A DNA stretch of 64,000 nucleotides from Halosolutus halophilus (lineage in GTDB: Archaea; Halobacteriota; Halobacteria; Halobacteriales; Natrialbaceae). The translations under genes and the position numbers were made by a program. Under the pieces are notes generated by a model. That model worked only from the letters and a program-made list of their open reading frames with translations, was not told the origin of the DNA and did not search any database. Below, piece by piece: positions 36,196 to 59,357 of the stretch; positions within the stretch are counted from its first letter, which is position 1; every line of letters begins with the position of its first letter. The stretch covers positions 2,418,001 to 2,482,000 of the forward strand of contig NZ_CP094974.1 of assembly GCF_022869805.1 (NCBI RefSeq), written 5' to 3'.

Positions 36196-38007
36196 ATGTC
36201 AGAGACAGATACGTCCGACTCCGGCCCGACGTGGCGCGACAAGGGACGCGCCCTGTATCGCGTTGCGACGTTTCGACCCAGACTCGCCGTCGCAGTGATC
36301 GCGTTGAGCGTCGTTGCGGCGTTGCTCGAGGGAGTTGGGTTGAGTTTCATCATGCCGATCGTTGAGGTCGCCCAGACCGACGCACCGGCCGAAGAAGCCG
36401 ACGGGCTACTGGAGACGTTTCTGACGATCTACGGGACGCTGGGGATTCCTTTCACACTCGGATATTTGGTGGTCGGCGTCGCGGCCGTGATGACGGTTCG
36501 GTTCACCGCGTCGTTTCTCGTCGGATGGTTACGGGCTGCGATCGAGACGAAGTACGTGAGACACCTGCAAGAAACGGCGTTCGACAACGCGCTCGAGGCG
36601 GACGTTTCCTACTTCGATCGAGAAGGATCCGACGATATTTTGAACGCGATCGTCACGCAGGCAGAATACGCGGGAGGCGTGATCACGCACGCATTGCTGG
36701 TTATCGAACAAGCGTTGCTCGCTAGCATATATCTTGCTATCGCACTCTATCTTGCTCCGCTCTTGACGGTGATCGCTGCGATGTTTCTTGGCGGCATGAC
36801 GATCCTGTTCAAGTACGTGCTCGATACCGGCTATTCTCTCGGAGACAGGGTGGCTGACGCCAAAGAAGGGATTCAGTCTCGAGCACAGGCGGGGACCCAG
36901 GGCGTGAGAGCGGTAAAGCTCTTCGGGATGGTCGACGACCTTCGAAATGGCTTTAGCGAATCGGCGGAGAAGTTCGAAGAGAACTCTATCACGGTCGAGC
37001 GGAACGACTCTGCGATCACGAACTATTACCAGCTCACGACCGCCGTGTCCGTGTTCGGCCTGATCTACCTCGCGTTAACGTTCTCGTCGTTGAACCTCGC
37101 CGAACTCGGTGTCTTCCTGTTCGCAGTGTTCAAGCTCGGCCCGAAGATCAGCAGCCTGAACAAGTACCTGTATCGTGTCGATAGCCAACTCCCGCATCTC
37201 GTTCGAACGCAAGAATTCATCGACGAACTCGAACGAAACCGCGAGCCGTCCGTCGCGTCCCGGCCGGTGCCGACTTCGGTCGATCGAATCGAGTTCGACG
37301 ACGTCCGGTTCAGCTACGATTCGAGCGACGAGACGGTACTTCACGACGTCTCGTTTCGGTTCGATCGGGACGAGTTCGTCGCGTTCGTCGGCCCGTCCGG
37401 CGCGGGGAAGTCGACGGTCGCGTCGTTGCTCGCCAGAATGTACGAACCCGATCGTGGTAACGTTCGAGCCAACGACGTTCCGATCGACGAGTTCGATATT
37501 CGGGAGTGGCGCTCTCGAGTGAGTGTCGTCAGACAGAACCCGCACATCTTCAACGACACACTTCGGTATAACGTGACCGTCGGAAAACGGGACGCGCCAC
37601 AGGCGGAAATCGAACGAGTCTGTGAAATCGCACAGGTAACCGAGTTTCTTCCCGAGTTGCCTGACGGATACGATACCGTACTCGGCGATCAAGGGGTGAA
37701 GCTATCCGGCGGCCAACAACAGCGAGTTGCGATCGCTCGTGCGCTGTTGAAAGAGGCAGACCTGCTGATACTGGACGAAGCGACGAGCGATCTGGACACG
37801 GCCCTCGAACAGCGAGTTCACGACGGGATCGAATCGATGGACCGAGACTACGCGATGCTGGTAATTGCCCACCGGCTCTCGACGGTAACCAACGCCGATC
37901 GGATTTACACGATGGAAGACGGAAAAATCGTAGAGTCCGGACCCCACGAGGATTTGCTGTCGAACTCGAGTACGTACTCGTCGCTGTACTCGTTGCAGTC
38001 CGATTAA
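36196..38007 (+). CDS. MsbA/PglK-type ABC exporter, candidate lipid-linked oligosaccharide flippase
   Basis: 603 residues. The transmembrane domain (about 1-330) has six helices, for example LAVAVIALSVVAALLEGVGL and PFTLGYLVVGVAAVMTVRF, and is followed by one NBD. Walker A is GPSGAGKST (about 399-407), Q-loop VVRQNPHIFND, signature KLSGGQQQRVAIARAL (about 501), Walker B LLILDEATSDLD and H-loop IAHRLSTV. The type IV exporter half-transporter works as a homodimer. In Campylobacter PglK, a relative, flips the undecaprenyl-linked glycan for N-glycosylation, and the setting here (phosphoglycosyl transferase, glycosyltransferases and AglB) suggests the same job on dolichol. No Wzx-type flippase is seen in the locus. 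Confidence 0.9.
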   Translation: MSETDTSDSGPTWRDKGRALYRVATFRPRLAVAVIALSVVAALLEGVGLSFIMPIVEVAQTDAPAEEADGLLETFLTIYGTLGIPFTLGYLVVGVAAVMTVRFTASFLVGWLRAAIETKYVRHLQETAFDNALEADVSYFDREGSDDILNAIVTQAEYAGGVITHALLVIEQALLASIYLAIALYLAPLLTVIAAMFLGGMTILFKYVLDTGYSLGDRVADAKEGIQSRAQAGTQGVRAVKLFGMVDDLRNGFSESAEKFEENSITVERNDSAITNYYQLTTAVSVFGLIYLALTFSSLNLAELGVFLFAVFKLGPKISSLNKYLYRVDSQLPHLVRTQEFIDELERNREPSVASRPVPTSVDRIEFDDVRFSYDSSDETVLHDVSFRFDRDEFVAFVGPSGAGKSTVASLLARMYEPDRGNVRANDVPIDEFDIREWRSRVSVVRQNPHIFNDTLRYNVTVGKRDAPQAEIERVCEIAQVTEFLPELPDGYDTVLGDQGVKLSGGQQQRVAIARALLKEADLLILDEATSDLDTALEQRVHDGIESMDRDYAMLVIAHRLSTVTNADRIYTMEDGKIVESGPHEDLLSNSSTYSSLYSLQSD

Positions 38008-44359: not shown

Positions 44360-46789
44360 TCAATCCAGTTCCAGCGTCGACCCGTCTTCAACGGCGTCTG
44401 TCGAGACGTCGACTTCCTGATCGCCGATCGTATATTCGCTGGGATACGGTACCGTCGCTTCCAGTGTTCCGTCCTCTCCCACAGTCACGTCCTGCTCGTA
44501 CGTGATCGTCTCGCCCGAGACTGTCACCTCGGTCCCGACCGTCACCGTCTCGCCCGGTTCGCCGGTCGCGGTGATCGTCGCTCCGGGGACCACGGCGAAC
44601 ACCGTCACTTCGTTGTCGATATAGATCGCCTGGTAGTGCTCGAGCGGTTCTCCGTCGTCGCCACCCGTCCCGAGATTATCGTGGAGTTTCGCCTGTGAGA
44701 TGTTTTCGGGGTACGGCTCATCTACATCGGTCATCACGACGTATCCGACCTGACTCCGTTCGAACTCCTCGTACCAGGCGTCCGGATTGTCGTCGACCTG
44801 GAACTCGTAGAAGTGGTTGAAGGCGTACGCGTATCGATCGGCTTCCCCATTGACGAAGTAGTTGTACATGCGGTTGTCCCCCCAGTCGCTCAACACGAAG
44901 TTGTCCGGATACTCTCGGTCGACGCCCGTCGCGTGTTCGTCGATGGCCATCGCTGCTTCGAACTCCGCATCGCTGTAGGTCGTTTGCCCGACTAACGACG
45001 GGAGGAAGAGCAGACTCATTCCGAAGATCAGCAGTCCGATCCAGACGAGCGCGACGAACGTCTTGACGTTCCTCGGGACGACGATACTGGGTTCGCGTTC
45101 CCCACCGTCTGTTGTGGCGGTCTGTGCGTGCGAACTTGCACGTTCGCTCGCGTCTGATCCTCTGAGCGGGACTGGAACTCTGGCTACATTCGCCCACGCC
45201 AACAGGTGCACGAAGCCAAGCCCCCCGAGTACAGCGAACGGGAGGGTCAACTGGCCCGCGAAGCGAGCCTGTATTGCTGCCAGCGCGAGCCAGAAGCCAC
45301 CGTAGACGGAGAGCAGCGTCCAACCGGGCGCATAGCGCCGAGCCGAGGTCCAGCCGGCCCATCCCAGGAACAGAAGCGCGATGTAAAACCAGACTCCGAA
45401 CTGCGACAGGGGCCCGAGGACGATTGCATGCTCTAACGAGAACAACGACGACGTCTCCACGGCACCTCCCCTAAAAAACAGGTCGCCGGCCCGTTCGGAA
45501 AGTCTGGCCCAGTCTTCTGGTCGCAGATATCGGAACGCAACGAGACCGACGCCGGTGAGGCCGCCCTCGAGACCGACGAGTCCCCAGGTGGGCCACTCGA
45601 AGCGACGCCACAGCTTTCCGAGTCCGACGACGGCGACGGCACCGACGACCACGAGTACCGGGATCGCTGCAGTGAACACTTCGTGCCACCCCCAGCCGAA
45701 GTGCAGGAACGCGGCGAGAGCCGCCCCCAGACTCAACCCGACGAGAACCGGCAGGTTCGCCGACGCTGGCGGGATGCCGGCCCGAACGTCGATCGCGATT
45801 TTCAGCCCGACGTACGCTGCAGCGGGAACGAGCAACAGAATCCCACCACCCCAGGCGTGGACCGAGAACGCGACCGCGATACCCAGTGCGACGGCAGCCA
45901 TCCACGTCCACGACTGTCGAAGGTGCTCGTGGATCGCCGCTTGCACCGTCGATGCACCGTTCCGTCGCCGATCGAGGTCGACGGCCAGCCAGGCGAGCGT
46001 CAGCATCGTCACGCCCAGCCAGAAGTACTGGTGCGGTCGATGCTCTAGAAAGCCGATGGTCGAGTATACGGCGTGCAGGGGGGTGATCGCCAGCAATACG
46101 ACAGACGTGACCCCTACGCGAACGTCGTCGCTGACGATAACGGCGAGCCAGTAGACGATGACGCCAAGCGCGAGCGTCGCGACGACGGGCAACCACGCGG
46201 CGACCATGTTCGCTGCCCACTGGTCCCCGCCGAGCAACGTAGCGAAAAGCCAGTTCGCGGCGTGAGTCAGCGGTCTCGTCCCGGCCGCCCCCTCGGGCAT
46301 GTCGGTTATCACGATTCCACCCTCCGCGAGGAGTTCCTCCAGCCAGTACCGGTAGTGGTACGGATCGTTCGACGGCGAGACGACGTGCTCGCCGCGCATT
46401 ACTGACGGATAAATCAGCGTTCGCGTCGCGAACAGCACGCCGAGCGCGGCCGCCAACGCCACCGCAGCGCGTCGATCGATGTCGATCAGGATCGAGCGGA
46501 CGGATCCCGGGCCCGACTCCTCCTCGACCGCGATCGGTTCGCCGGTGAGACCGGCCCGCACCCCCTCTCTACTCGAGATGCGATACTCGCCGTCGACCTT
46601 CGTGACGATGCCGCGAGAGACGAGTTCCCCGAACGTTCCGGAATCGAGCGGGAGGACGTCGAAGGTCCAGGTGTCGTGTTCGGCATCGACCTCGAGAAGC
46701 GTCTCGATCGCACGCTCCCCGTCGGCGTAGTTCTCACAGAACGAGTCGACCGCGTCTGCGACCGTAGCGGGATCGGTGTCGCCGACCAT
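44360..46789 (-). CDS. aglB: Dolichyl-phosphooligosaccharide-protein glycosyltransferase, divergent AglB/STT3
   Basis: 809 residues, somewhat shorter than many haloarchaeal AglB. Residues 1-95 are a soluble winged-helix-like front (SGTFGELVSRGIVTKVDGEY). About 11-13 membrane helices run from about 103 to 560. The first external loop keeps SPSNDPYHYRYWLEELL, the metal/acceptor Asp region. The second expected motif (DHH-like) reads STIGFLEHRPHQYFW. The C-terminal catalytic signature WWDYG is replaced by LSDWGDNRMYNYFVNGEADR. The end is a beta-domain (TITATGEPGETVTVGTE). It is predicted to transfer lipid-linked oligosaccharide to Asn in sequons on the outer face. It could be an AglB paralogue with altered specificity. 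It lies in the centre of the glycan locus. Confidence 0.87.
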   Translation of the reverse strand: MVGDTDPATVADAVDSFCENYADGERAIETLLEVDAEHDTWTFDVLPLDSGTFGELVSRGIVTKVDGEYRISSREGVRAGLTGEPIAVEEESGPGSVRSILIDIDRRAAVALAAALGVLFATRTLIYPSVMRGEHVVSPSNDPYHYRYWLEELLAEGGIVITDMPEGAAGTRPLTHAANWLFATLLGGDQWAANMVAAWLPVVATLALGVIVYWLAVIVSDDVRVGVTSVVLLAITPLHAVYSTIGFLEHRPHQYFWLGVTMLTLAWLAVDLDRRRNGASTVQAAIHEHLRQSWTWMAAVALGIAVAFSVHAWGGGILLLVPAAAYVGLKIAIDVRAGIPPASANLPVLVGLSLGAALAAFLHFGWGWHEVFTAAIPVLVVVGAVAVVGLGKLWRRFEWPTWGLVGLEGGLTGVGLVAFRYLRPEDWARLSERAGDLFFRGGAVETSSLFSLEHAIVLGPLSQFGVWFYIALLFLGWAGWTSARRYAPGWTLLSVYGGFWLALAAIQARFAGQLTLPFAVLGGLGFVHLLAWANVARVPVPLRGSDASERASSHAQTATTDGGEREPSIVVPRNVKTFVALVWIGLLIFGMSLLFLPSLVGQTTYSDAEFEAAMAIDEHATGVDREYPDNFVLSDWGDNRMYNYFVNGEADRYAYAFNHFYEFQVDDNPDAWYEEFERSQVGYVVMTDVDEPYPENISQAKLHDNLGTGGDDGEPLEHYQAIYIDNEVTVFAVVPGATITATGEPGETVTVGTEVTVSGETITYEQDVTVGEDGTLEATVPYPSEYTIGDQEVDVSTDAVEDGSTLELD

Positions 46790-47173: not shown

Positions 47174-48088
47174 TCAGTCGCGTCCGCCGTCGCGCCGTCG
47201 AACCCGCGCGCTGATAGCGGACGGGACGCCGCTCAGTTGCAGTTTACCCTTTTCGAACAGAAAGCGAGACACGTCCCGCGCCCGCCGGGGATCGGCCATT
47301 ACGGATTTGCGAAACTCCAACGCCGCGTTCAGGAACTCTCGCCGCCGGACGTGGGATTTGCCGAGAATGTACCGGTACTGTGCACGGTACGAAGCGGGCA
47401 ACTCGTGGTGGTACGTCTCGAGAAACGTGGTCAACCCCTCGATCTTTTCGGCGTCGTTTCCGGTGAGTTGTCCGTCGTGGCTGTGGTATCTGTACAGCGG
47501 TTCGTCGACACCGACCAGGTAGTACTCTCGGAGGAGTTTCACCCAGAACGCGACGTCGTCCATATACGCGATCCGTTCGTCGAAAGTCCCTACGTCCGCG
47601 AACACCGACGCACGCACCGTCAACCCACCCGTCCTCGCCTCGGTCTCGATCGACGGTCCGAAGTCGGCGGGCGAAGCCATCACCGGCGTCGCCCCGTGGG
47701 TCTCGATGACCTCGCCGTCTCGATAGCGTTCGAGCGCGACGAACGTCCCCGCACACTCGGCGGATTCCGCCCGAAGCGTTTCGATCGATCGCTCCAGAAA
47801 CGTCGGTTTGAGTTCGTCGTCGGAGTCGAGAAACGAGACGTACTTCCCCTCCGCGGCCCGTATACCGGTGTTTCGAGCGGCCGAGGGACCCCGGTTGGTT
47901 TCGTGTGAAACGTATCTGATCCTGTCGTCCGGATACTGATCGACGACGGCGGCGATGTTGTCGGTGGAGCCGTCGTCCACGACGACAATTTCGAACTCCT
48001 GAAACGTCTGCTCGCGGACGCTGTCGAGAGTTCGGGGAAGAACGTCGGCCCGGTTGTACGTCGGAACGACAACGCTTGCGGCTATCAT
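47174..48088 (-). CDS. Glycosyltransferase family 2
   Basis: 304 residues. MIAASVVVPTYNRADVLPRT opens the GT-A domain, with FEIVVVDDGSTDNIAAVVDQ (nucleotide site), GPSAARNTGIRAAEGKYVSF and the DSDDEL metal motif. A further element is GTFDERIAYMDDVAFWVKLL (acceptor side). The C-terminal third (about 220-304) is helical and basic, ending VPSAISARVRRRDGGRD. It is similar in layout to the two GT2 proteins at 53383 and 54324. The start is fixed by the conserved VVVPTYN. It probably adds a sugar to the dolichol-linked glycan; donor and linkage are unknown. Confidence 0.9.
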   Translation of the reverse strand: MIAASVVVPTYNRADVLPRTLDSVREQTFQEFEIVVVDDGSTDNIAAVVDQYPDDRIRYVSHETNRGPSAARNTGIRAAEGKYVSFLDSDDELKPTFLERSIETLRAESAECAGTFVALERYRDGEVIETHGATPVMASPADFGPSIETEARTGGLTVRASVFADVGTFDERIAYMDDVAFWVKLLREYYLVGVDEPLYRYHSHDGQLTGNDAEKIEGLTTFLETYHHELPASYRAQYRYILGKSHVRRREFLNAALEFRKSVMADPRRARDVSRFLFEKGKLQLSGVPSAISARVRRRDGGRD

Positions 48089-48284: not shown

Positions 48285-49010
48285 GTGGCGCCGCTCGTAG
48301 ACGGGTCGTGGTATGCTCGCTCGCGAAACCGAACCGCGCTGTCGGTCTCACAACCGGTTATCTACGAACTTGCAAGAAGGTACTATCGCCGGAAATGGCT
48401 GAACAGGGAGATTGGAACTTATCCTCGGCCGCCGGATCCGACGACGCTCATCCGGGTCGCACCCGACCGAATAACGTATCGAACGGCCCGTTCAGAACCG
48501 ACGACGTACAAGACGTGAGCGATCGGACGAGTCAGGGACGGCGACTGGGATCGAACCGATCGGCAGTTCGACGACAGCGAGATCTATCGTTCCGTGCGAC
48601 AACGATATCTCCACGACCGGCCGTGGGAGGAAACGCCCGTCGTAACGGAACGGATCCCGCCCTGGGATCTCGACTCTCCGGCCGAGATCCGGCGAAAAGC
48701 CGCAGGGATGGACCGGCTCTGGCGATCGTTACGCAACGATGGCTATCAAAGCCAGCGAGAGTTATGGAAGCGAAATCCAGACCGGTTTCGGGAGCAATTT
48801 TCCCAACGAAACAAATTTTTTCCCTACTTACTCGTCAACGAGATCACCGCCGATATCGGCCGTAATGGCGAGTTGCTCTTCGTCGATTCGTTTCATCGGC
48901 TCTCGATGGCGAAGCTTCTCGACCTGGAGTCGGTGCCCGTATACGTGCTCGTTCGTCACCGGAAGCGGATGACTAATCCCGACAGGGTCGACGGAGACAG
49001 CGCCGATTGA
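48285..49010 (+). pseudogene. ParB-fold glycan-locus protein interrupted by an in-frame TGA
   Basis: One reading frame of 242 codons carries protein similarity on both sides of a single TGA at 48516-48518 (codon 78). Before it are ELARRYYRRKWLNREIGTYP and PPDPTTLIRVAPDRITYRT. After it are AIGRVRDGDWDRTDRQFDDS, the diagnostic GDWD, and RNGELLFVDSFHRLSMAKLL with VPVYVLVRHRKRM, the ParB-like GxxHRLxxA motif in a diverged form. The related gene at 51231 has the same order with no stop. So this is probably a nonsense-mutated gene (TGA could derive from TGG or CGA). An intact TATA box precedes it. Translation restart at the GTG at 48594 would give a 138-residue C-terminal product. It converges with the FkbM gene across 8 bases. 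Confidence 0.78.
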
Positions 49011-49018
49011 GCGGCGAT

Positions 49019-49867
49019 TCAGGCGGATCGCTCCGCGCGAATAAAGTGGCCACTGTCCCACTCCCAGAGGCGGTCGATCTCGAAGCCGCGGTTTCGAAGC
49101 CATCCGTAGATTTCGTTCGCCGACGCGTTGGACCCGTAGTAACTATCCGACGTGACCACGTCGAGGTAGACCAGTCGACACTCCGAGATTGCCCGTTCCA
49201 TCCCCCGCAAAACGCCCATCTCCGCGCCCTCCACGTCGATTTTGAGCACGTCCGGAGCCGGAACGCCTTCCGCCACGAGGTCGTCACCCCTCGCCGTTTC
49301 GACCCGGATGCCGTCCGACGCATCGTCGGAGAGATAGCCGAACTCGCCGGCACCCGCCTTTTCGGTTATCTTGAGCGTTCGTTCGTCGCGTTCGGCCATC
49401 AGTGCCCGCTCGTGGACGTCCGCCGAGAGCCCGTTCAACCGGAGGTTCTCCTCGATCCGATCGACGTTGTTCGGGTTCGGCTCGACGCCGACGACGCGAC
49501 CAGTTGGCAGTTTCGCCGCCGCGAAACAGGTGTAGATACCCGCGTTCGCCCCGACGTCCCAGAAGACGTCGTCCGGTTCGAGGTGCGTCAAGATATCGCC
49601 GAGGACCGGAAACGACCGGTCAGTTTCGGGATAGCGCTGGAACAGCAGGTACTCGTCGACGTTCGCTATTTTGAACCGAATCGTGAGCCCGTGGACCGTG
49701 ATCCGCTCTTCGGAGGGAACGAACGGCGCAAGCGCCCGTCGATACGAGTACGAGAACACTTCTCTAATCCCCTGCTTCCGAAGCGGGTCCTTGATCGGCT
49801 CCGGCACGTAACCGATCCCATGTCTGAGATTCGAGCGCAGTCCGACGAGTAGCTTCGCAAATTCCAT
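49019..49867 (-). CDS. FkbM-family SAM-dependent methyltransferase (copy 1)
   Basis: 282 residues. The N-terminal 80 residues (SNLRHGIGYVPEPIKDPLRK, FVPSEERITVHGLTIRFKIA) precede the methyltransferase core. Motif I is DDVFWDVGANAGIYTCFAA (about 100-118), then VVGVEPNPNNVDRIEENLRL (acidic residue for SAM ribose) and the FkbM hallmark DVLKIDVEGAEMGVLRGME. The C-terminus has WLRNRGFEIDRLWEWDSGHF. FkbM enzymes O-methylate sugars or polyketides, so here methylation of a surface-glycan sugar is likely. It is a close paralogue of 52334-53218, with long identical stretches even at the DNA level, but in opposite orientation. Start MEFAKLL aligns with an internal Met of the copy. Confidence 0.92.
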   Translation of the reverse strand: MEFAKLLVGLRSNLRHGIGYVPEPIKDPLRKQGIREVFSYSYRRALAPFVPSEERITVHGLTIRFKIANVDEYLLFQRYPETDRSFPVLGDILTHLEPDDVFWDVGANAGIYTCFAAAKLPTGRVVGVEPNPNNVDRIEENLRLNGLSADVHERALMAERDERTLKITEKAGAGEFGYLSDDASDGIRVETARGDDLVAEGVPAPDVLKIDVEGAEMGVLRGMERAISECRLVYLDVVTSDSYYGSNASANEIYGWLRNRGFEIDRLWEWDSGHFIRAERSA

Positions 49868-50312
49868 ACCCCCACGTGGCCACGGGACTATTTATTTAAA
49901 TCCAGCATATCGATCGAAGAGCGGCTTCGGCGACGATCGGTGACCGGTAACGGACTCATACCCGAACGATCACGAGCGGCATCCGTCCAGTCACGAGACG
50001 ATACCGAACCGGTTCGCCGATGATCGTCACTGGACGATGAGCGCGATCGGGAGTTACCGAATTCTCGGAGAGAATAGTCAAGTAGCAGGATCCCGTCGGT
50101 GGGCACGGACTGCGCAGCGATGGCCCAACACGTTCGATACGGAGACGCTCGTCCGAACCAACCGGTGTCGCGATCCGCGAAGCCGTCGTCCCGATCGGCC
50201 TCCGCTTCCCGAACGACGATCGTGATCGAATCTCGAAATGCGACCGAATCGCGGATCACCTTTGACTTCCGCGTCGCGGCTGAATCCCATCACGCCGAAC
50301 CTAGCTATTCCT
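49868..50312. other. Gene-free stretch of about 445 bases
   Basis: Starts AT-rich (promoter of the FkbM copy 1, ATTTATTTAAATCC on the plus strand), then moderate GC with no frame showing coding bias. A frame open from 50238 merely extends the deacetylase upstream. Nothing else was recognised. Confidence 0.45.
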
Positions 50313-51077
50313 ATGGTTCCAAAGCAACGCATCTTGCGCCGGGTTAACGCCCGTTGGAAGTTCGTTCACCGCTTCGCAGACCGCCATCCCGTCGTCCTCC
50401 AGTATCACTCGGTGAACGGGACCGGCTGGGACGACATCCCGGATGCGTGGTTTCGAGCACACCTCGAGTGGTTGCAATCGGAGTACGAGATCGTCGATCT
50501 CCCCGACGTGATTTCATCGACGGCCGGTAAAGAAATCGCACTCACGTTCGACGACGGATTACAGAGTTTTCACCACACAGTCCTGCCGATCCTTCGAGAG
50601 TACGACGCGCCGGCAACGGTCTATCTCATCGGCGAGGCGGTTCTCGATCCCGACGGCGAGTACATGCCGGTCAAATCGGACTACATGACCCGGGATCAGC
50701 TGACCGAAATCGTCGACGACTCGCTCGTCACGGTCGGCAATCACACGCGGAGCCATCCGAAGCTCTCGGAGCTCGATCGAGAGGCGATCGAAGCCGAAAT
50801 CGTCGAGGGAAAGGAGATCATCGAGTCTGAACTCGGCGTCGGGGTCGATCGGTTCTGTTACCCGTTCAACGATTACGACGCGACGGCGGTCGACGTCGCC
50901 CGAAGACACCACGCCACGGCCGTTACTAGCGGCGGCGATCAACAGCTAATCACGGCCGAGACCGATCCGCACCGGATTCCGCGGACGAGAGGCGAAAAGA
51001 CGCCGGAAGTCGTTCGGTGGCTCGTACCCGATTTTTCAACTCAACTCGTCGGCGGATACCGTCGATTCTTCGGGTAG
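50313..51077 (+). CDS. Polysaccharide deacetylase (NodB domain)
   Basis: 254 residues from MVPKQRILRRVNARWK. The N-terminal strand has HPVVLQYHSVNGTGWDDIPD. NodB motif 1 is LTFDDGLQSFHHTV (catalytic Asp pair, residues 79-82). Motif 2 is VGNHTRSHPKLSEL (metal His144 and His148), with later motifs VDRFCYPFNDYDATA and AVTSGGDQQ. These metal-dependent enzymes remove N-acetyl groups from sugars such as GlcNAc, or act on carbohydrate esters. In this locus it would modify a HexNAc made from the GlmS/GlmU pathway. No signal peptide is seen, so it may act in the cytoplasm on the lipid-linked intermediate. Upstream in-frame codons show no similarity. Confidence 0.9.
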   Translation: MVPKQRILRRVNARWKFVHRFADRHPVVLQYHSVNGTGWDDIPDAWFRAHLEWLQSEYEIVDLPDVISSTAGKEIALTFDDGLQSFHHTVLPILREYDAPATVYLIGEAVLDPDGEYMPVKSDYMTRDQLTEIVDDSLVTVGNHTRSHPKLSELDREAIEAEIVEGKEIIESELGVGVDRFCYPFNDYDATAVDVARRHHATAVTSGGDQQLITAETDPHRIPRTRGEKTPEVVRWLVPDFSTQLVGGYRRFFG

Positions 51078-51230
51078 GAGGAGGTGCCCTGTAGAGACAT
51101 CTAAGTCCGACACACCGCTGGCCGCTCGGATACGCGTTCGAACTTTCACCGGCGTCTATCTGAGCGGAGAGCGATCCGCGTGATTATTCAGGAGATGTCG
51201 TACGTCCGGGTGGTCTACGTTGCAAATCGA

Positions 51231-51893
51231 TCAGCGGCTGAAACCCGCCGTCGAGACGTTGTATATCTCGTCGCGTATCTCTTGCCACCTCTCGTGGCGG
51301 ACCACGATCCGCACCGGGATTTCGTCGAGGTCAAGTACTTTTGCAATACTTAGCCGATGCCACCCGTTCCCACGGAATATCAGTTGACAGTCGCGTCCGA
51401 TATTGATACAAACGTCGTCCAGAAACGTATCTAAATCGTCAGACGGTGAACCCATCAGTTCTCGCTTAGGTACACCCTTTTTTTGGACGGAGTCGTACGA
51501 CCGATCGATTCTGTTGCAGTACTCCCGTACCTCGTCCACCGCCGTGCATCCTTTCACAGACCCCCGATCAGAAACGATTTCTTTATACTTGTTTAAGAGG
51601 TATTTCTCCTCCCACGGCACTCCCCTCTTGAAATGATGGCAAATCGCCATATGCGTGGGAGAGTCCGAAAATTCATGCGTTTTTTCGTCCCAGTCACCGC
51701 CGTAAACGGCTCCAGCGTCGGTGTATTTGCTAAAGACCGTTTTGTACGACCGTATCGCATCCGGATCGACGTATACGAGTCCGAAGGGATCGATTGGCGC
51801 GTCGTACCCAAAGTTCACTAGCTTCAGGATCTGTTTCTGCTTGAACCTATAATCATCAACGTCGTCGATCAGAGTCGGGAGGAGAGCCCGCAC
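51231..51893 (-). CDS. ParB-fold protein of a glycan locus (copy 2, intact)
   Basis: 220 residues from GTG 51893. Order: LKLVNFGYDAPIDPFGLVYV, the diagnostic GGDWDEKTHEFSDSP (GDWD 66-69), a helical middle (PWEEKYLLNKYKEIVSDRG), then CINIGRDCQLIFRGNGWHRL (170-180) with LSIAKVLDLDEIPVRIVVRH. GxxHRLxIAKxL resembles the ParB/Srx-fold nucleotide-binding motif found in ParB and free-serine kinases (SbnI/SerK). The role is unknown; kinase- or CTPase-like activity on a small metabolite or glycan part is a guess from fold. Lower GC and looser codon bias than neighbours suggest recent transfer. The same family recurs, broken, at 48285. Confidence 0.75.
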   Translation of the reverse strand: MRALLPTLIDDVDDYRFKQKQILKLVNFGYDAPIDPFGLVYVDPDAIRSYKTVFSKYTDAGAVYGGDWDEKTHEFSDSPTHMAICHHFKRGVPWEEKYLLNKYKEIVSDRGSVKGCTAVDEVREYCNRIDRSYDSVQKKGVPKRELMGSPSDDLDTFLDDVCINIGRDCQLIFRGNGWHRLSIAKVLDLDEIPVRIVVRHERWQEIRDEIYNVSTAGFSR

Positions 51894-52333
51894 ACCACAT
51901 ACCCGTTCGAACGTATGGCTTCATCGGGGAAAGTCAATTGATCAAGAAATGTCACCGAGACCCATAACATTTCACTCATGGTATTGCGAATGTCGGTCGT
52001 GAAATCAGCGCACCGCGGAGGTAAGTTAGAATACCGCCGACCAGGGTACGATTGACCGCGTTCCGCAGGCGTGACGGCGAAATAACTCGGGAATGAATCA
52101 CGATCCCTTGGTCAAGACTACCGTCACCAAGACGCTCATATAGCCCTCGAAGGGGGGCGCACGAGGTGGTAAACGTCAATTTCGGGCGCGATAATGACAG
52201 GAACGTCAGTTGCGATCGCACACTTCTCCTCTGAAGCAAATCGCACCGAATAGTACGGAATAACCTGATTTTTGCTATCGCATCGTCAATGTAGGATCCG
52301 GATAACATAATCGATAGAGGGATGAGCGAGCGT
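51894..52333. other. AT-richer gap (about 430 bases) with a coding-like scrap
   Basis: Base composition is lower in GC than flanking genes and most frames contain stops. The right end (GATAACATAATCG near 52300-52312) is the likely promoter of FkbM copy 2. A reverse-strand scrap (51976-52200) is listed separately. Confidence 0.45.
51976..52200 (-). pseudogene. Possible gene remnant, C-terminal end
   Basis: The reverse frame contains LYERLGDGSLDQGIVIHSR, VISPSRLRNAVNRTLVGG and the end YLRGALISRPTFAIP then stop. It reads like the end of a real protein, but the upstream part has no coding bias, so it may be a truncated gene left by rearrangement. Family not recognised. Codon bias is only moderate, so chance remains possible. 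Confidence 0.3.
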
Positions 52334-53218
52334 ATGAACGTCGTGGACCTCGTTAGCGCACTGGTCCCGAAACTCAAAAATAGTGTTCAATATGTTCCGG
52401 AACCGGTCAAGTCGCCACTTCGCCTGCTTGGCGTGAAATCGGCGCTGTCGGACGCTTATCGGTGGATACTCAGTCCGTTTTTTCCGATAGAACAACATAT
52501 TACCGCCCATGGACTCACGATGCGGTTCAAAATCGAGGACGTGGAGGAATACTTCGTCTTTCAAAAGTACCCCGAGAAGGACGAGTCGTTCCCCGTCCAC
52601 GGGGATATCTTGACACACCTGGGACCGAACGACGTCTTCTGGGACGTCGGGGCCAACGTCGGCATCTACACCTGTTTCGCGGCGGCGAAACTCCAGTCGG
52701 GCCACGTCGTTAGCGTCGAACCAAATCCAAACAACGTCGATCGGATCGAGGAGAACCTGCAGTTGAACGGGCTTTCGGCGGACGTCCACGAACGGGCACT
52801 GATGGCAGAAAACGACGAAGGCGTACTACAGATCTACGAGGACGCGGAGGCCGGGGCATTCGGGTTCCTCTCCGAGGACGGGTCCTCGGTCGAGAGCGAG
52901 TCGTTGACGATCGATCCGACCGAGAGTGTTCGCGTCGAAACCACGACCGGAGACGCGCTCGTCGACGACGGCGTCCCCGCCCCGGACGTGCTCAAAATCG
53001 ACGTTGAGGGTGCGGAACTGGAGGTCCTGAAAGGGATGGAACGGACGGTCGAGGAGGACGTCCGGGTACTCTACATCGACGTGATCACGTCGGACGAATT
53101 TTACGACCGGACCGTGGCACCGGACGAGGTGTACGACTGGCTGGACCGGCACGGGTTCGAAACCGAACGGCTGTGGGACTGGGACGGCGGGCACTTCATC
53201 CGCTGTGAGCGGACCTGA
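52334..53218 (+). CDS. FkbM-family SAM-dependent methyltransferase (copy 2)
   Basis: 294 residues from the ATG at 52334; an ATG four codons earlier is also open. The internal start is chosen because it aligns residue for residue with copy 1 and because CATAATC lies about 25 bases upstream. Motif I is NDVFWDVGANVGIYTCFAA, then VVSVEPNPNNVDRIEENLQL and the FkbM signature DVLKIDVEGAELEVLKGME. An acidic insertion (SEDGSSVESESLTIDPTES, about 180-200) is absent from copy 1. It shares with copy 1 a block of nearly identical DNA around 52730-52760 while the flanks are diverged, suggesting gene conversion. Likely methylates a glycan sugar. Confidence 0.92.
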   Translation: MNVVDLVSALVPKLKNSVQYVPEPVKSPLRLLGVKSALSDAYRWILSPFFPIEQHITAHGLTMRFKIEDVEEYFVFQKYPEKDESFPVHGDILTHLGPNDVFWDVGANVGIYTCFAAAKLQSGHVVSVEPNPNNVDRIEENLQLNGLSADVHERALMAENDEGVLQIYEDAEAGAFGFLSEDGSSVESESLTIDPTESVRVETTTGDALVDDGVPAPDVLKIDVEGAELEVLKGMERTVEEDVRVLYIDVITSDEFYDRTVAPDEVYDWLDRHGFETERLWDWDGGHFIRCERT

Positions 53219-53382: not shown

Positions 53383-54327
53383 ATGGCTCGCGTCAGCGTG
53401 ATTACTCCCTCGTATAACGACGCTCAATCCGTTTCTCGAGCGATAAACAGCGTCCTTGGTCAGACGTACGACGACTACGAACACGTCGTCGTCGACGACG
53501 CATCTACGGACGATACGTCTCGAATTCTCGACCAGTACGACGATCCGCGGATCAAACGGGTAAAACGGGAAACGAACGGGGGACTGGCCGCTGCTCGAAA
53601 CGACGGGCTTCGAGTCGCGAAGGGGGAGTACGTCGTCTTCCTCGACGCTGACGACGAATTACTCCCGCACACGATCGAAACCCTGATCGAACTCGTCGAA
53701 GCCGGCGACTGGATCGCGGTGTGTCCGTCGCAGTTGTGGATCTGGAAAGACGGAACGACGGAGGTAGACCCCGCCCCACCTCGCAAAATTACGACGGAGG
53801 ACATGCGGACCGATGGAATGCACGTAGTTGGCGGAGTCGGGGGAATGATGGTCGAATCTCGAGCGCTCGAAGCCGCTGGATGGTTCGACGAACGACTCCG
53901 GTATCTTGAGGATTACGACGTCTGTCTCCGACTCGTCGAGGAGGGGGCGCTGTACGGAACGGACGAAATACTGTACCTGTATCACCGAGGGTACGAGGGC
54001 CAGTTGACCACGCACAAAGACGAGTACCTGAGCCAGAGACGCAAGTTTTTGAAGAAGAATCGAGAGCGACTCTCGAAACGACACCGGTCGAAACACTACT
54101 ACCGGATCGCACACTCACACGCGGAGGCCGGTAACATGGACGGAGCAGCGAGAAACCTCGTCGACGCGATCGCTGCGCACCCGTTCCGGCTGCCGTACTA
54201 CTACTATCTGGTCGCCGTGCTGTTCGGCGAGTGGACGTACGACGCGGCGTCGAAACTCCACGAGGAGACTAGGCGACGGGTCGGCTCGACACTCCCACAG
54301 ACCCGTCTCGGGAAACGCGAGTCATGA
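53383..54327 (+). CDS. Glycosyltransferase family 2 (tandem pair, first)
   Basis: 314 residues. MARVSVITPSYNDAQSVSRA opens a GT-A domain, with YEHVVVDDASTDDTSRILDQ (nucleotide site), GLAAARNDGLRVAKGEYVVF and the DADDEL metal motif. Acceptor-side markers are HVVGGVGGMMVESRALEAAG and RYLEDYDVCLRLVEEG (ED-like base). The C-terminal 90 residues are helical, with HPFRLPYYYYLVAVLFGEW as an aromatic hydrophobic segment that may touch the membrane. The stop overlaps the start of the following paralogue (ATGA). A TATA-like CGCATATAAC lies about 35 bases before the ATG. Donor sugar is unknown. Confidence 0.92.
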   Translation: MARVSVITPSYNDAQSVSRAINSVLGQTYDDYEHVVVDDASTDDTSRILDQYDDPRIKRVKRETNGGLAAARNDGLRVAKGEYVVFLDADDELLPHTIETLIELVEAGDWIAVCPSQLWIWKDGTTEVDPAPPRKITTEDMRTDGMHVVGGVGGMMVESRALEAAGWFDERLRYLEDYDVCLRLVEEGALYGTDEILYLYHRGYEGQLTTHKDEYLSQRRKFLKKNRERLSKRHRSKHYYRIAHSHAEAGNMDGAARNLVDAIAAHPFRLPYYYYLVAVLFGEWTYDAASKLHEETRRRVGSTLPQTRLGKRES

Positions 54328-55235
54328 GTACCGTTAGCGTCGTCACCCCCACGTACAACCACGCGGATCTGCTGCCTCGAGCGATCGAAAGCGTCCGCGA
54401 TCAGACGTACGACGATATCGAACACGTCGTGGTCGACGACGCGTCGACCGACGACACGGCCGAGGTGATGGCCAGTTACGACGATCGGGTCCGATACATC
54501 AGGAAAGAAGAAAACGGCGGGCTCAGCGAGACGCGGAACGTCGGAATCAGAAACGCGAGCAGCGACCGAATCGTCTTTCTTGACGCGGACGACGAACTCG
54601 AGCCGAACGCGGTCGAGGTGCTCGTCGACACCATCGATCGGGGCGAGTTCGTCGGCGTGATCCCCTCGAAAACGAAGGTCGAAGCTGACGGGAGCGTCAG
54701 ATACAAAACCCTGCAAGCCGCCGTCGTGACGGCCGAGGATCTCCGCGAAGAGAACGTTCTCGGGGGTATCGGTGGCGGTATTTTCGAACGCGACGCTCTG
54801 GAGGCCGTCGGACTCTTCGATCCGGACCTTAGACACAGCGAAGATTACGACCTGTATCTCCGCCTCGCCGAGCGGTTCCCGTTGTACGCCCTCGATCGGC
54901 CGCTCTACGTCCACTACACCGGCATCGAAGAACAACTCACGTCGGAACGGGGCCACTACGAGCACAGGGACAGTATCAGACGGTTCCTCGACAAACACGA
55001 AGATCGCATGTCGGCGTACCGTCTCGCCGAACGCCACTACAACCTGGCCCACATCTGTGCCCGACGGAACGATACCGAGGAAGCGATCGAGGAGTTCCGG
55101 CGCGCGATCGCAGCCTTTCCGTTCCGACCTCCATACTACTACTACCTCATCGCGACGATGGCTGGGAGGAGACGGTACGACGCGGCACGAACGGTCCACG
55201 AAAGCGCCAGAGAGTTGGCCTCGAAACTCACCTGA
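54324..55235 (+). CDS. Glycosyltransferase family 2 (tandem pair, second)
   Basis: 303 residues starting with ATG inside the preceding stop (ATGA overlap), so the two are co-translated. MSTVSVVTPTYNHADLLPRA, then DIEHVVVDDASTDDTAEV, LSETRNVGIRNASSDRIVF and the DADDEL metal motif. It is a paralogue of its neighbour: both have the C-terminal block FPFRPPYYYYLIATMAGRR/HPFRLPYYYYLVAVLFGEW and a Tyr/Leu-rich acceptor-side region (HSEDYDLYLRLAERFPLYAL). The pair probably adds two successive sugars. No signal or extra domain is present. Confidence 0.92.
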   Translation: MSTVSVVTPTYNHADLLPRAIESVRDQTYDDIEHVVVDDASTDDTAEVMASYDDRVRYIRKEENGGLSETRNVGIRNASSDRIVFLDADDELEPNAVEVLVDTIDRGEFVGVIPSKTKVEADGSVRYKTLQAAVVTAEDLREENVLGGIGGGIFERDALEAVGLFDPDLRHSEDYDLYLRLAERFPLYALDRPLYVHYTGIEEQLTSERGHYEHRDSIRRFLDKHEDRMSAYRLAERHYNLAHICARRNDTEEAIEEFRRAIAAFPFRPPYYYYLIATMAGRRRYDAARTVHESARELASKLT

Positions 55236-55289: not shown

Positions 55290-56474
55290 TCACGTGACGC
55301 TACGATACTCCCGAAGGATGTGATCCAAGACGTGATCGGGTTCGAACCGTTCGAGTCGGGCCTCGCTCCGTTCACAGAGCACGGCTCTCGTCTCGGGATC
55401 GTCGGAGATGGACGCCAGTTTCGAGCGTAATTCGTCGACGTCACCCGGGTCGAACGTCAGGCCGGCGTCGCCGACCACCCACGGGGGACCGCCGACGTCG
55501 GAAACGATCGCCGGGGTCCCACACTGCATCGATTCGAGCACCGCTCGGCCGAACGGCTCCGGCCACGTCGCCGGGTGGACGAACACGTCTGCTGCGGCGT
55601 AATAGGCCGGAAGCTCCGAGTGGGAGACCCAGCCATGGAACGTGACTCGATCCGCGACGCCGAGCGACGTCGCGTACGATTCGAGCGCCCTCCGGTCAGG
55701 TCCGTCTCCGACGACGTGAACGCGCAGTGGGAGATCGAGTTCCGCAGTCGCATCGAGGAGCGTTCGAAGGCCCTTGTACTCCTCGAGGCGGGCGACTGAG
55801 AGCACGTCCAGGCCTCGCTCGTCGAATCGATCGGGAAGCCGACAGGGCGAGTCCATCCGAGCGAATTCGGGGACGTAAAAATTAGGGACGACCGTGATCT
55901 CGACGTCGAACCCGACGGACGAGTAGACCTCTTTTACGGCCGGACTTTGTGCGAATAGCTTGTCCACCCGACCGACCAGTCGAGGGACGACGGACGTCCG
56001 ACCGACGTACACCGGCGTCTTCAGCAGTTTTCGAATTCCTCCCGCGTCGTCGTGGACCAATTTACTGAAACTGGAGCAGCGCTCGTAACAGTCGGGAGTC
56101 ATCTTCGACTGATTCGTACAGAACAGGGCGTACGAATTGAGCCTCCCGACGACCGGGGTTTCGCCGCTGCTTCGATACAGTCCGGCCGCGGGAAGCAAAA
56201 TCGGCGTAAATACGTGAAAGAGGTCACAGTCGTCGTATCGATCCATGAGTCGTGCGACTTCCCGAATCCAGCGCACCGCGTGCGCTGATCGGTCGATCGA
56301 GTGTTCGGCGACGATGTAGGGTCGCTCCAACGGCAACTCGTTCTGATCCCGATCGATTGTCACGACCCGTACCGAGTGGCCGCGTTCCGAGAGCGACCGG
56401 GCCAGCGCATCGAGACTGACGTTCGATCCGCCGCCGCTTGCGGTCAACTTCTCGCAAACGATCGTGATCTCCAT
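55290..56474 (-). CDS. Glycosyltransferase family 4 (GT-B)
   Basis: 394 residues. The N-terminal MEITIVCEKLTASGGGSNVS has the Gly-rich acceptor loop, then SVRVVTIDRDQNELPLERPY and DLFHVFTPILLPAAGLY. The donor domain has RGLDVLSVARLEEYKGLRTL and LRVHVVGDGPDRRALESYAT. The retaining E-x7-E motif is EPFGRAVLE within HPATWPEPFGRAVLESMQCG, followed by SDVGGPPWVVGDAG. A likely mannosyl- or glucosyl-type transferase of the glycan. It is the downstream member of a three-gene reverse-strand run (58131, 56493, 55290) of GT4 enzymes. Confidence 0.92.
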   Translation of the reverse strand: MEITIVCEKLTASGGGSNVSLDALARSLSERGHSVRVVTIDRDQNELPLERPYIVAEHSIDRSAHAVRWIREVARLMDRYDDCDLFHVFTPILLPAAGLYRSSGETPVVGRLNSYALFCTNQSKMTPDCYERCSSFSKLVHDDAGGIRKLLKTPVYVGRTSVVPRLVGRVDKLFAQSPAVKEVYSSVGFDVEITVVPNFYVPEFARMDSPCRLPDRFDERGLDVLSVARLEEYKGLRTLLDATAELDLPLRVHVVGDGPDRRALESYATSLGVADRVTFHGWVSHSELPAYYAAADVFVHPATWPEPFGRAVLESMQCGTPAIVSDVGGPPWVVGDAGLTFDPGDVDELRSKLASISDDPETRAVLCERSEARLERFEPDHVLDHILREYRSVT

Positions 56475-56492
56475 GTATTTGCTACCCGGTTG

Positions 56493-57740
56493 CTATCGTG
56501 TTTCCGCGTACAGTTCCGCCTCACTTCCATTATCCGCGACAGCGGTGTACAGTTTCAGGATACTCTCGAGGACGCGCTCCCGATCGTACTCCCTCGCTTT
56601 CCGCTTCCCGCCACGCGACAGGGTGCGGAGTCGTTCGTCGCGGACGAGTTGCAGTATCGTTTCCCGGAAGTCGTCGATGGAACCGTCAGTAGTGACGCCG
56701 CCCGGTCCGACGATCGATTCGACGGTCCCGTACTCGCTGGTCACGATCGGAGTCCCCGTTGCGAGCGCCTCTAGGTACACTCGAGCTAACGGTTCCTCCC
56801 AGATACCGGGATAGACGAAGCAATCGTGCTCCGCATACACGGCCGGAAGGTCGCTGTTCGGAACGAATCCCCTGAAATCAACGAGGTCCTCGACGCCGTG
56901 CGCTTCCGCCTGGGTCCACAGCGCAGACTCCAATCCACCGGTTCCGACGATTGTCAGTTCGAACTCGAACTCGCTGTCGTCCAGCGCGCTCAGGATCGGA
57001 ATCAGCTTTCTCACACCTTTCGCTTCGATGAGATACCCTACGTACAGGAGTCTGTAGCGCTCTGTGAACTCGCTCCGGTGGTCGATCCAGAACGTCTCGT
57101 CTACGGGATGGGGAACGACGCGTATCTTGTCGCGATCGTACCCGAACTGAGCGTAGTTCTCTCGGACGTGATCGGAGGGTGCACGAAACGCGTCGACGTG
57201 CTCGAGGCGTCGTTCTCCAGATCGAACCAATCGAAGCGAGAAGAGTTGGCTCGCCGTCCGATAGAGATAGCCGAACTCCTCGTTTTCGAACCCCGTCCGA
57301 GCGATGCAGTGTAGACACTTCGAGAGCGATTTCCGCTCGCACTGCGTCTCGTTCAGGTAGAGCAGATCGTTCTTCGCGCACACGCCCTGGTACGCGTTCA
57401 GCGTGACGACGGTCCCTGCGTCAGTCGCCGCTCCGATCTTCGCGACGGCAGGGATCAACGACATCAGGTAGCTGTGAACGACGTCGTACTCGCCGAACTC
57501 GTCGAGTCGAGCGGTGACCTCCTCGTTTAATCTCGTGTCCGTGTGCGGGTGGCTGCTGTTGCCGGTGAGATACCGGTACTCGACGCCGGCGTACTGGAGT
57601 TCGTCGTCCGGCGTGTCGGTACAGTAGACGCAGACCTCGTGGTCCGTTTCAGCGAGGCCGGTTACGATCTGGGTCGCCGTGTGAGTCGCCCCCGTTCCCT
57701 CTGCCGACGGAAAATGTGGATGGATGAAGGCGATTTGCAT
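56493..57740 (-). CDS. Glycosyltransferase family 4 (GT-B)
   Basis: 415 residues. MQIAFIHPHFPSAEGTGATH shows the acceptor loop, followed by HEVCVYCTDTPDDEL and DVVHSYLMSLIPAVAKIG. A Cys-rich patch ETQCERKSLSKCLHCIART (about 135-153) sits between the domains and may bind metal or form a structural loop. The donor domain is RYRLLYVGYLIEAKGVRKL, with the E-x7-E motif EPLARVYLE in WEEPLARVYLEALATGTP. It is separated from the next gene by 18 bases, so the two share a message. Donor sugar unknown. The Cys patch is unusual for GT4 but I cannot say it is unique. Confidence 0.9.
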   Translation of the reverse strand: MQIAFIHPHFPSAEGTGATHTATQIVTGLAETDHEVCVYCTDTPDDELQYAGVEYRYLTGNSSHPHTDTRLNEEVTARLDEFGEYDVVHSYLMSLIPAVAKIGAATDAGTVVTLNAYQGVCAKNDLLYLNETQCERKSLSKCLHCIARTGFENEEFGYLYRTASQLFSLRLVRSGERRLEHVDAFRAPSDHVRENYAQFGYDRDKIRVVPHPVDETFWIDHRSEFTERYRLLYVGYLIEAKGVRKLIPILSALDDSEFEFELTIVGTGGLESALWTQAEAHGVEDLVDFRGFVPNSDLPAVYAEHDCFVYPGIWEEPLARVYLEALATGTPIVTSEYGTVESIVGPGGVTTDGSIDDFRETILQLVRDERLRTLSRGGKRKAREYDRERVLESILKLYTAVADNGSEAELYAETR

Positions 57741-58130
57741 TACGAACGGGTATCACGCGGCGTTTTATAATAGGTCGTCACTATCGCCGTGAGAGTGTTC
57801 GAAGCTAACGAATCGCCGCGGAAGCATCCGTCTTTGGCTAATACCCACAGTAATACAGTCTGACCGTGATTTTCGGTCTGATTTCATCCATGAACCTCAC
57901 TAAACCGCCGGAGACGCCAATTCTCAGCGTTGTCTGGCGTCTGATTTCACAATGAAGAGCATCTCACCAGCTGGGATCGCCTCTCAAATATCATCAATTA
58001 TGATACTAATTCCTCAGATTACTACCAGTCTGGGCTAAAGACGAACCGCCGCAGAAGACACGCGTCGAGAGCCGACGGTGACGAGTATCACGCGTTGCGC
58101 CCGAAACGGCGACTGTAAACGGTTCCGGAT
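57741..58130. other. AT-rich gap with two hairpins and an 11-base direct repeat
   Basis: The middle (57862-57949) has GACCG...CGGTC and AGACGCCA...TGGCGTCT inverted repeats. Each is followed by GTCTGATTTCA (57876-57886 and 57939-57949). Outside that, no coding frame or RNA gene was recognised. The left end should hold the promoter of the GT4 gene at 56493. Confidence 0.45.
57862..57949. repeat. Two hairpins each followed by GTCTGATTTCA
   Basis: GACCG (57862-57866)/CGGTC (57874-57878) and AGACGCCA (57912-57919)/TGGCGTCT (57935-57942) form stems. Both are followed by the same 11 bases, 63 bases apart. Such paired structures could be regulatory sites, decayed transposon ends or transcript-end signals. 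Nothing further can be said. Confidence 0.4.
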
Positions 58131-59357
58131 TCACACATCGCCGTGAATCGCTCGCTGGAATTCCTCGACGAGCACGTCCTGTGAGTAGTCGGTTTCGACA
58201 AACTCCCGTCCTCGATCGCCGAACTGCTGGCGTTTCGAGGGATCGGCGGCCAGTTTCCGGATCGATCGGCAAAAGCCAGTGACGTCGTCCGGCTCATGGA
58301 GGTAGCCGCACTCGCCGTCGGCCACGCTGTGCTCAATCCCCCCGACAGAACTGCCGACGACCGGAAGTCCGGCTGCCATGGCCTCGATGACGGTGATACA
58401 GAGACCCTCGTACAACGAGGGTTGCGCGTAGATGTCGACGGTGTCGAGGAACTGCGGCAGATCGCGAACCGCTCCGAGAAACTCGACGTTTTCGATGCCG
58501 GCCGACTCGATTCTGGATTCTAGCGCCCGTCGTCTGGGGCCGTCGCCGGCGATTCGAAAGACGATCTCGTCGTCCGAGAGTGCATCCGCGACGGCGAGGA
58601 GCGTTCGATAGTTCTTCTGTTCCGACAATACGCCGACGCTTCCGACGACTACGCAGTCGGTATCCTCGTGCTCTCGCCGTTCGAACTCGTCTAGTGGGAT
58701 GCCAGCGATCGGAACCGTCTTGACGAACTCCTCGCTGAGTCCGAATTCATCTCGTAACATCTCCGCGACGGGTTCGGAATCCGCGAGGAGAACGGTACTC
58801 AAAGAGTTCGTGGTTTCGAAGACTTTCTTTCGAACCGTCGTCTGGAATCGCTCGTTGTGTTGCCACGTGGCAACGACAGCGTCCGGATTGACGACGCCAG
58901 CGAGTCGAGCGACCAAGACGGAGTGAAAGAGCGAGCCGACGATGACGTCTGCGTCAACGACGGCCGACACCAGTCTCGACACATCCCGCGGGGTTCTGAG
59001 GCGTTTGCAGTCGATTATCGATTCGACGTCCGGAACTCGTCGGTCGACGAACGTTTCGTCGTAGCCGTCGAGAGTTGCGATCGTGACGTCGTACCGATCG
59101 TCATTCAGCCCATCCAGCAATCGACACAGGCCGACCTCGGCCCCTCCCGTATCAAGCGTGGTGATCACGTACACCAGGTTGCACACGTCCGTTTCCCGGC
59201 TCGTCAACAGTCCCTGATTCGTCGCCGTCTCACGATTCGACGATGCAGGGACCTGCTGTGAAGGCCGTGTGCTTTCGGTCTCAGTTCGGGTGAACACGCT
59301 CGCGTCGGCCTCGATAGACGGATCGATCAAGATTCGACCACCAATGGCCTGTACCAC
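58131..59357 (-). CDS. Glycosyltransferase family 4 (GT-B)
   Basis: 408 residues from GTG 59357. The first ~58 residues are a polar extension outside the fold. GT4 begins CNLVYVITTLDTGGAEVGLC with the Gly-rich acceptor loop, then DADVIVGSLFHSVLVARLAG. The donor domain is VVVGSVGVLSEQKNYRTLLA and IVFRIAGDGPRRRALESRI, with the E-x7-E motif EGLCITVIE in PSLYEGLCITVIEAMAAGLP. It overlaps the stop of the epimerase at 59327 by 31 bases, so a shorter start inside the frame is possible. Part of the reverse-strand run that ends the glycan cluster. Confidence 0.9.
   Translation of the reverse strand: MVQAIGGRILIDPSIEADASVFTRTETESTRPSQQVPASSNRETATNQGLLTSRETDVCNLVYVITTLDTGGAEVGLCRLLDGLNDDRYDVTIATLDGYDETFVDRRVPDVESIIDCKRLRTPRDVSRLVSAVVDADVIVGSLFHSVLVARLAGVVNPDAVVATWQHNERFQTTVRKKVFETTNSLSTVLLADSEPVAEMLRDEFGLSEEFVKTVPIAGIPLDEFERREHEDTDCVVVGSVGVLSEQKNYRTLLAVADALSDDEIVFRIAGDGPRRRALESRIESAGIENVEFLGAVRDLPQFLDTVDIYAQPSLYEGLCITVIEAMAAGLPVVGSSVGGIEHSVADGECGYLHEPDDVTGFCRSIRKLAADPSKRQQFGDRGREFVETDYSQDVLVEEFQRAIHGDV

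Follow-up and report, generated by a model that had tools for sequence, protein, structure and literature searches.

FkbM methyltransferase genes and a ParB/sulfiredoxin-like family in a haloarchaeal aglB surface-glycan locus

The 64,000-nucleotide stretch of Halosolutus halophilus DNA considered here (contig NZ_CP094974.1, positions 2,418,001 to 2,482,000; called the window, with positions counted from its first letter) comes from a Natrialbaceae chromosome of 5.06 Mb and contains aglB with a surface-glycan locus surrounding it. In this locus, two genes encoding FkbM-type methyltransferases and two encoding ParB-like proteins are neighbours, with a polysaccharide deacetylase gene between the FkbM genes (Table 1). 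Is this arrangement a working unit present in duplicate, as a preliminary description of the locus had proposed, or have unrelated genes been brought together by local reshuffling, and what would a ParB-like protein do among glycan genes? This haloarchaeal aglB locus for surface glycans is variable, and independent tailoring genes of two kinds adjoin in it; the FkbM and ParB-like genes very probably do not form a duplicated working unit. The pairing is local and of little weight; the family behind the ParB-like genes is what matters. As a whole, the explanation preferred on balance, and with moderate confidence, combines independent tailoring genes with a nucleotide-dependent glycan-modifying family.

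Relationship between the FkbM and ParB-like genes

The positions and strands given in the preliminary description are correct, and so are its assignments of the two FkbM genes and the deacetylase, which are intact and clear family members scoring above the cut-offs. Both FkbM proteins are typical of their family (PF05050/TIGR01444), with no notable difference. The idea of two copies of a pair, in contrast, does not stand. The ParB-like proteins (ParB1 and ParB2) are 35% identical, belong to different supported clades (98/92 and 99/95 in a 109-row tree) and are united in 0% of bootstrap trees. The FkbM pair also exists without them, since in two other Natrialbaceae genomes (loci L116 and L117) an FkbM-deacetylase-FkbM block is found in a syntenic glycan locus, whose AglB in L116 is 68% identical to that of the window, and the ParB-like gene is absent. 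FkbM1 shares 76% and 78% identity with its orthologues in L116 and L117, respectively, FkbM2 shares 81% and 84%, and the deacetylase is 83-84% identical in both, while the two window FkbMs are 64% identical to one another. Because each FkbM is closer to its own orthologue than to the other copy, the FkbM pair predates the split of these loci. Gap lengths differ in keeping with the presence or absence of the ParB-like genes, namely 930 bp in the window versus 70 bp in L116 between the GT2 gene and FkbM1, and 1244 bp versus 432 bp between the deacetylase gene and FkbM2. In the latter gap of L116 (11863-12294), an HPDV stretch looks tail-like by eye; it is undetected by the family profile and was not used.

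A neighbourhood survey, named beforehand as the check on the pairing, found co-occurrence of FkbM and ParB-like genes to be rare in Natrialbaceae, which is the outcome that the preliminary description had named as refuting its proposal. It covered 125 genomes, the listing of ParB-like copies reaching approximately E 5e-17, and neighbour counts refer to the copies listed. Outside the window genome, FkbM (PF05050) is found within 1.5 kb of 1/149 copies, within 5 kb of 9/149 and within 10 kb of 12/149. A duplicated two-gene unit, made of a kinase-like ParB-fold enzyme and an FkbM methyltransferase, would agree with the occurrence of both families twice within 5 kb and with the single adjacent case found elsewhere (genome G117, locus L118), but the FkbM of L118 is <30% identical to those of the window. 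Given the separate clades, the synteny without ParB-like genes and the single adjacency, this candidate was rejected and is considered highly improbable. The preliminary description knew of no described function for the pair in archaea, and a search of a limited set of open papers found no description of ParB with FkbM.

A further point against a duplicated unit is that stops occur in both window ParB-like genes. The first was correctly located but is not an intact gene. It contains an in-frame TGA at 48516-48518 (residue 78), and its open remainder (48594-49010) lacks GDWD; the family profile matches before and after the stop without a change of frame (E 1e-15 and 1.8e-29, respectively). For the second, the reported open frame (51231-51893) holds, but a TGA at 51231-51233 closes it ahead of a conserved HPDV tail. 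In-frame sequence past this stop reads SICNVDHPDVRHLL, an HPDL-type tail being kept in nearly all relatives, and with the stop masked the profile match extends over 51186-51887 (E 1.8e-85). The G+C content at third codon positions of both genes (0.62-0.67) is somewhat below that of their neighbours (0.69-0.83). The stops may reflect decay or an assembly error, and both copies may be inactive. Recoding of TGA is an unlikely cause, because other stop-bearing copies in the family have TAA, TAG or TGA and most copies are stop-free.

Local gene reshuffling would explain why the FkbM and ParB-like genes are neighbours in the window. The older block is FkbM1-deacetylase-FkbM2, and two distantly related ParB-like members occupy two of its gaps. 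Judging from family membership, this block would combine acetyl removal with sugar methylation: FkbM probably catalyzes sugar O-methylation, and the deacetylase probably N- or O-deacetylation.

Spread and genomic context of the ParB-like family

The ParB-like proteins belong to a widespread archaeal family, undescribed as far as the search of open papers reached, which is not proof of novelty. It is present in 71/125 Natrialbaceae genomes, with up to 12 copies each, and in 109/292 sampled Halobacteria species (37%) distributed over 44/78 genera. Members also occur in nanohaloarchaea, on plasmids of Halobaculum and other haloarchaea and, rarely, in Asgard archaea (4/195 genomes in the phylum to which the Lokiarchaeota match belongs) and Bacillota (4/398). 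Members are labelled hypothetical proteins in PLSDB and RefSeq, and the window ParB-like protein is unassigned in Pfam, NCBIfam and PHROGs. The Pfam ParB model PF02195, which served as query in the published survey of the ParB fold, misses the family, with no match above cut-off in the window genome. The motifs that the two window copies had been said to share are confirmed (GxWD and GxHRLS.AK), and conservation in the family comprises GxWD, DxLYxxIxxxG, RDGxLxFxxGxHRLxIAKxLxxxxIPVxVxxRHxxW and HPDL. Two copies, divergent or tandem, are found in some Bacillota loci (L055, 2844-3728 and 9890-10522; L138), and in Alkalicoccus the copies are located in a polysaccharide locus. A defence role was rejected, since all that PADLOC returned was a weak match of one member to Cas11b (E 0.008).

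The preliminary assignment of the window to a glycan locus is well founded, aglB and glycosyltransferase genes surrounding the FkbM and ParB-like genes, and elsewhere, too, members of the family usually have glycosyltransferase, flippase or AglB genes nearby. The context was surveyed in 82 loci; the following are raw counts, which share ancestry and lack a background of random glycan genes. A flippase gene is found within 1.5 kb of the ParB-like gene in 28/82 loci, a GT61 gene is adjacent in 16/82 (median distance 58 bp), and within 6 kb GT2 occurs in 43 loci, GT4 in 35, AglB in 26 and FkbM in 4, the window counted. A recurrent haloarchaeal grouping consists of a ParB-like gene, GT61 and a flippase, often with AglB near (L056-L059, L061, L062, L070, L071, L079, L082, L092, L101 and L113). 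ATP-binding cassette (ABC) exporters flank many paired ParB-like copies, and homologues of the window exporter do so in several Natronorubrum-type loci; L040, L042, L043 and L046 have such gene pairs beside related exporters. A role of the family in assembling surface glycans is likely, and elsewhere than in the window the ParB-like gene is an accessory of glycan assembly loci with GT61, other glycosyltransferases, flippases and ABC exporters.

Among other neighbours, 17 loci encode an unnamed protein of ~400 amino acids close to the ParB-like gene and mostly right beside it (L073 10380-11537 and 16 relatives); this protein is weakly GH88-like (E 0.004). One of the members from L033 and L034 is found beside a hydrogenase maturation cluster.

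Fold, nearest families and candidate function

A ParB/sulfiredoxin (Srx) fold had been suggested for the ParB-like proteins, and two AlphaFold2 models agree with it, that of the window protein (predicted local distance difference test 80.9, predicted template modelling score 0.76) and that of a member from L036 (86.2 and 0.81, respectively). Searched against the PDB with Foldseek, both give sulfiredoxin, SbnI, ParB, Noc, KorB, PadC and SerK-type proteins as top matches; Atu1540 aside, all of the top 41 and top 44 matches, respectively, bear ParB/Srx-fold names, and such names also come first in a viral library search. The fold is accepted because these lists are consistent, rather than on single E-values, the best being 0.036 and 0.084. 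The family is thus placed by its predicted models in the ParB/sulfiredoxin (ParB-CTPase) fold superfamily. Its GxHR loop has the GxxR P motif, with G177 and R180 invariant in 24/24 aligned members; through the arginine of this motif, members of the fold bind ATP, CTP or GTP (PMC12704722).

Comparison with named families narrows the possible functions. In Foldseek, the window protein matches sulfiredoxin best (with a probability of 0.90 and E 0.036), but the catalytic cysteine of sulfiredoxin (GCHR) is absent in the 24 aligned members, and a sulfiredoxin function was rejected. The CTPases ParB, Noc and KorB have the fold and the P motif in common with the family, but Pfam searches gave no helix-turn-helix or dimerisation domain for it, and among its neighbours no ParA was seen. 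The idea that it is a ParB for partition or DNA binding, left behind by mobile elements, would fit the fold match and the variable presence among genomes, but it is scarcely credible in view of these differences, of neighbours that are glycan genes and of the failure of PF02195 mentioned above. Viral contigs and phages yielded no relative beyond a 35-residue motif match, and a phage origin was likewise rejected.

The nearest named families in sequence are SbnI, the free serine kinase of Staphylococcus, and SerK, the archaeal ADP-dependent serine kinase and a proven small-molecule kinase (PMC5120207). Both share with the family the ParB/Srx fold region and the DGxHR loop; the family is distinguished from them by a GxWD-containing insertion before the core, the HPDL tail and the glycan-locus context. 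When compared with PDB sequences, the family profile matches SbnI best, over the DGxHR stretch (E 0.1), and single members match SerK (E 8e-4) and SbnI (E 3e-3) in NCBIfam, with scores that fall far below the equivalog cut-offs (18.6 versus 380 bits and 17 versus 350 bits, respectively). The kinase-like direction indicated in the preliminary description appears plausible in the light of these weak matches.

Taken together, the ParB/Srx fold, the invariant GxHR loop and the direction given by SerK and SbnI make a nucleotide-using enzyme likely, and from the genomic context a lipid-linked or polymer glycan is the likely acceptor. Most likely, the family consists of accessory glycan-modifying enzymes that would depend on a nucleotide. 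The nucleotide held by the GxHR loop would serve to modify a sugar or a lipid-linked glycan, and phosphotransfer in the manner of SerK and SbnI would be plausible; by analogy with these kinases, the family may tentatively be regarded as phosphotransferases, although confidence in this narrower assignment is limited. If the family does modify glycans with a nucleotide, it would constitute a new enzyme class in archaeal glycosylation.

Several observations weigh against the preferred explanation. No single Foldseek match falls below E 0.001, and the SerK and SbnI matches are weak and only ~30-45 residues long. Some copies are located outside glycan loci (L033 9989-10804 and L034 10013-10621). 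The context leaves the reaction unspecified, because many tailoring genes share such a context, and the difference from L116 and L117 may be due to a gain of ParB-like genes in the window or to a loss in these loci. The main rival reading takes the protein to be non-catalytic, a switch or scaffold dependent on a nucleotide, by which glycosyltransferases, the flippase or chain length would be controlled. ParB-fold proteins are often nucleoside triphosphate switches (PMC12704722), and genomes with many paralogues, often adjoining (47/151 listed copies within 3 kb of another), are compatible with such a role. However, the nearest sequence families are enzymes, and the conservation of WD and RH..W residues in addition to the P motif points to an active site, so that a switch or scaffold is rather improbable.

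A methyltransferase reappears in the family in another form. In 5/5 Asgard copies (L050 9686-11053; L144-L148), a class I methyltransferase domain is C-terminal to the ParB-like domain, with Pfam support for L050, the others having been recognized by eye. The link between the family and methyltransferases is this fusion, with a class of methyltransferase other than FkbM, and it is a direct hint at the family's chemistry. The arrangement recalls WbdD, the kinase-methyltransferase of E. coli O9a, which phosphorylates the glycan end and methylates the phosphate, and whose kinase adopts the fold of eukaryotic protein kinases (PMC3482155). A glycan locus is common to WbdD and the window proteins, and a methyltransferase fusion to WbdD and the Asgard copies; by contrast, the window proteins are separate polypeptides with a ParB/Srx fold and fall outside the WbdD type, and haloarchaeal ParB-like genes have no fused or regularly adjacent methyltransferase. 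In a WbdD-like capping, a ParB-fold protein would phosphorylate the glycan end and a methyltransferase would methylate the phosphate, which would stop or mark the chain. The five fusions, which show the domain pairing of WbdD with another kinase fold, and the frequent ABC exporter or flippase neighbours are in favour of this analogy. It is nevertheless an unlikely account, given that a methyltransferase is not a regular neighbour in haloarchaea, that the kinase activity of the family is unproved and that the arginine of GxHR has been lost from 3/5 Asgard copies. More speculative still is its extension to the entire family as kinases of surface glycans: in haloarchaea and nanohaloarchaea, in Asgard archaea and in some Bacillota, they would phosphorylate a sugar of the lipid-linked glycan. 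In Asgard archaea, the fused methyltransferase would methylate the phosphate, and the WbdD logic would have arisen independently.

Annotated features of the window

The features bearing on the preceding sections are collected in Table 1.

Table 1. Positions of the annotated glycan-locus genes in the window (aa, amino acids; ORF, open reading frame)
Feature	Position	Strand	Basis
ABC exporter of the glycan locus	36196..38007	+	603-aa ORF; named from sequence
AglB-type oligosaccharyltransferase	44360..46789	-	809-aa ORF; named from sequence and locus context
GT2 glycosyltransferase	47174..48088	-	PF00535 E 4e-40
ParB-like copy 1 (ParB1), TGA-interrupted	48285..49010	+	family profile on both sides of stop
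FkbM methyltransferase 1	49019..49867	-	PF05050 E 2.5e-22; TIGR01444 E 7e-30
Polysaccharide deacetylase	50238..51077	+	PF01522 E 9.6e-27, 93.8 bits versus cut-off 23.1
ParB-like copy 2 (ParB2)	51186..51893	-	open frame 51231-51893; conserved tail 51186-51230 past stop
FkbM methyltransferase 2	52322..53218	+	PF05050 E 2.3e-24; TIGR01444 E 9e-33
Two GT2 glycosyltransferases	53383..55235	+	PF00535 E 2e-37, 5e-38
Three GT4 glycosyltransferases	55290..59357	-	domain searches

Elsewhere in the window, the protein encoded at 29021-30433, which may be LarC-like, contains a very histidine-rich stretch.

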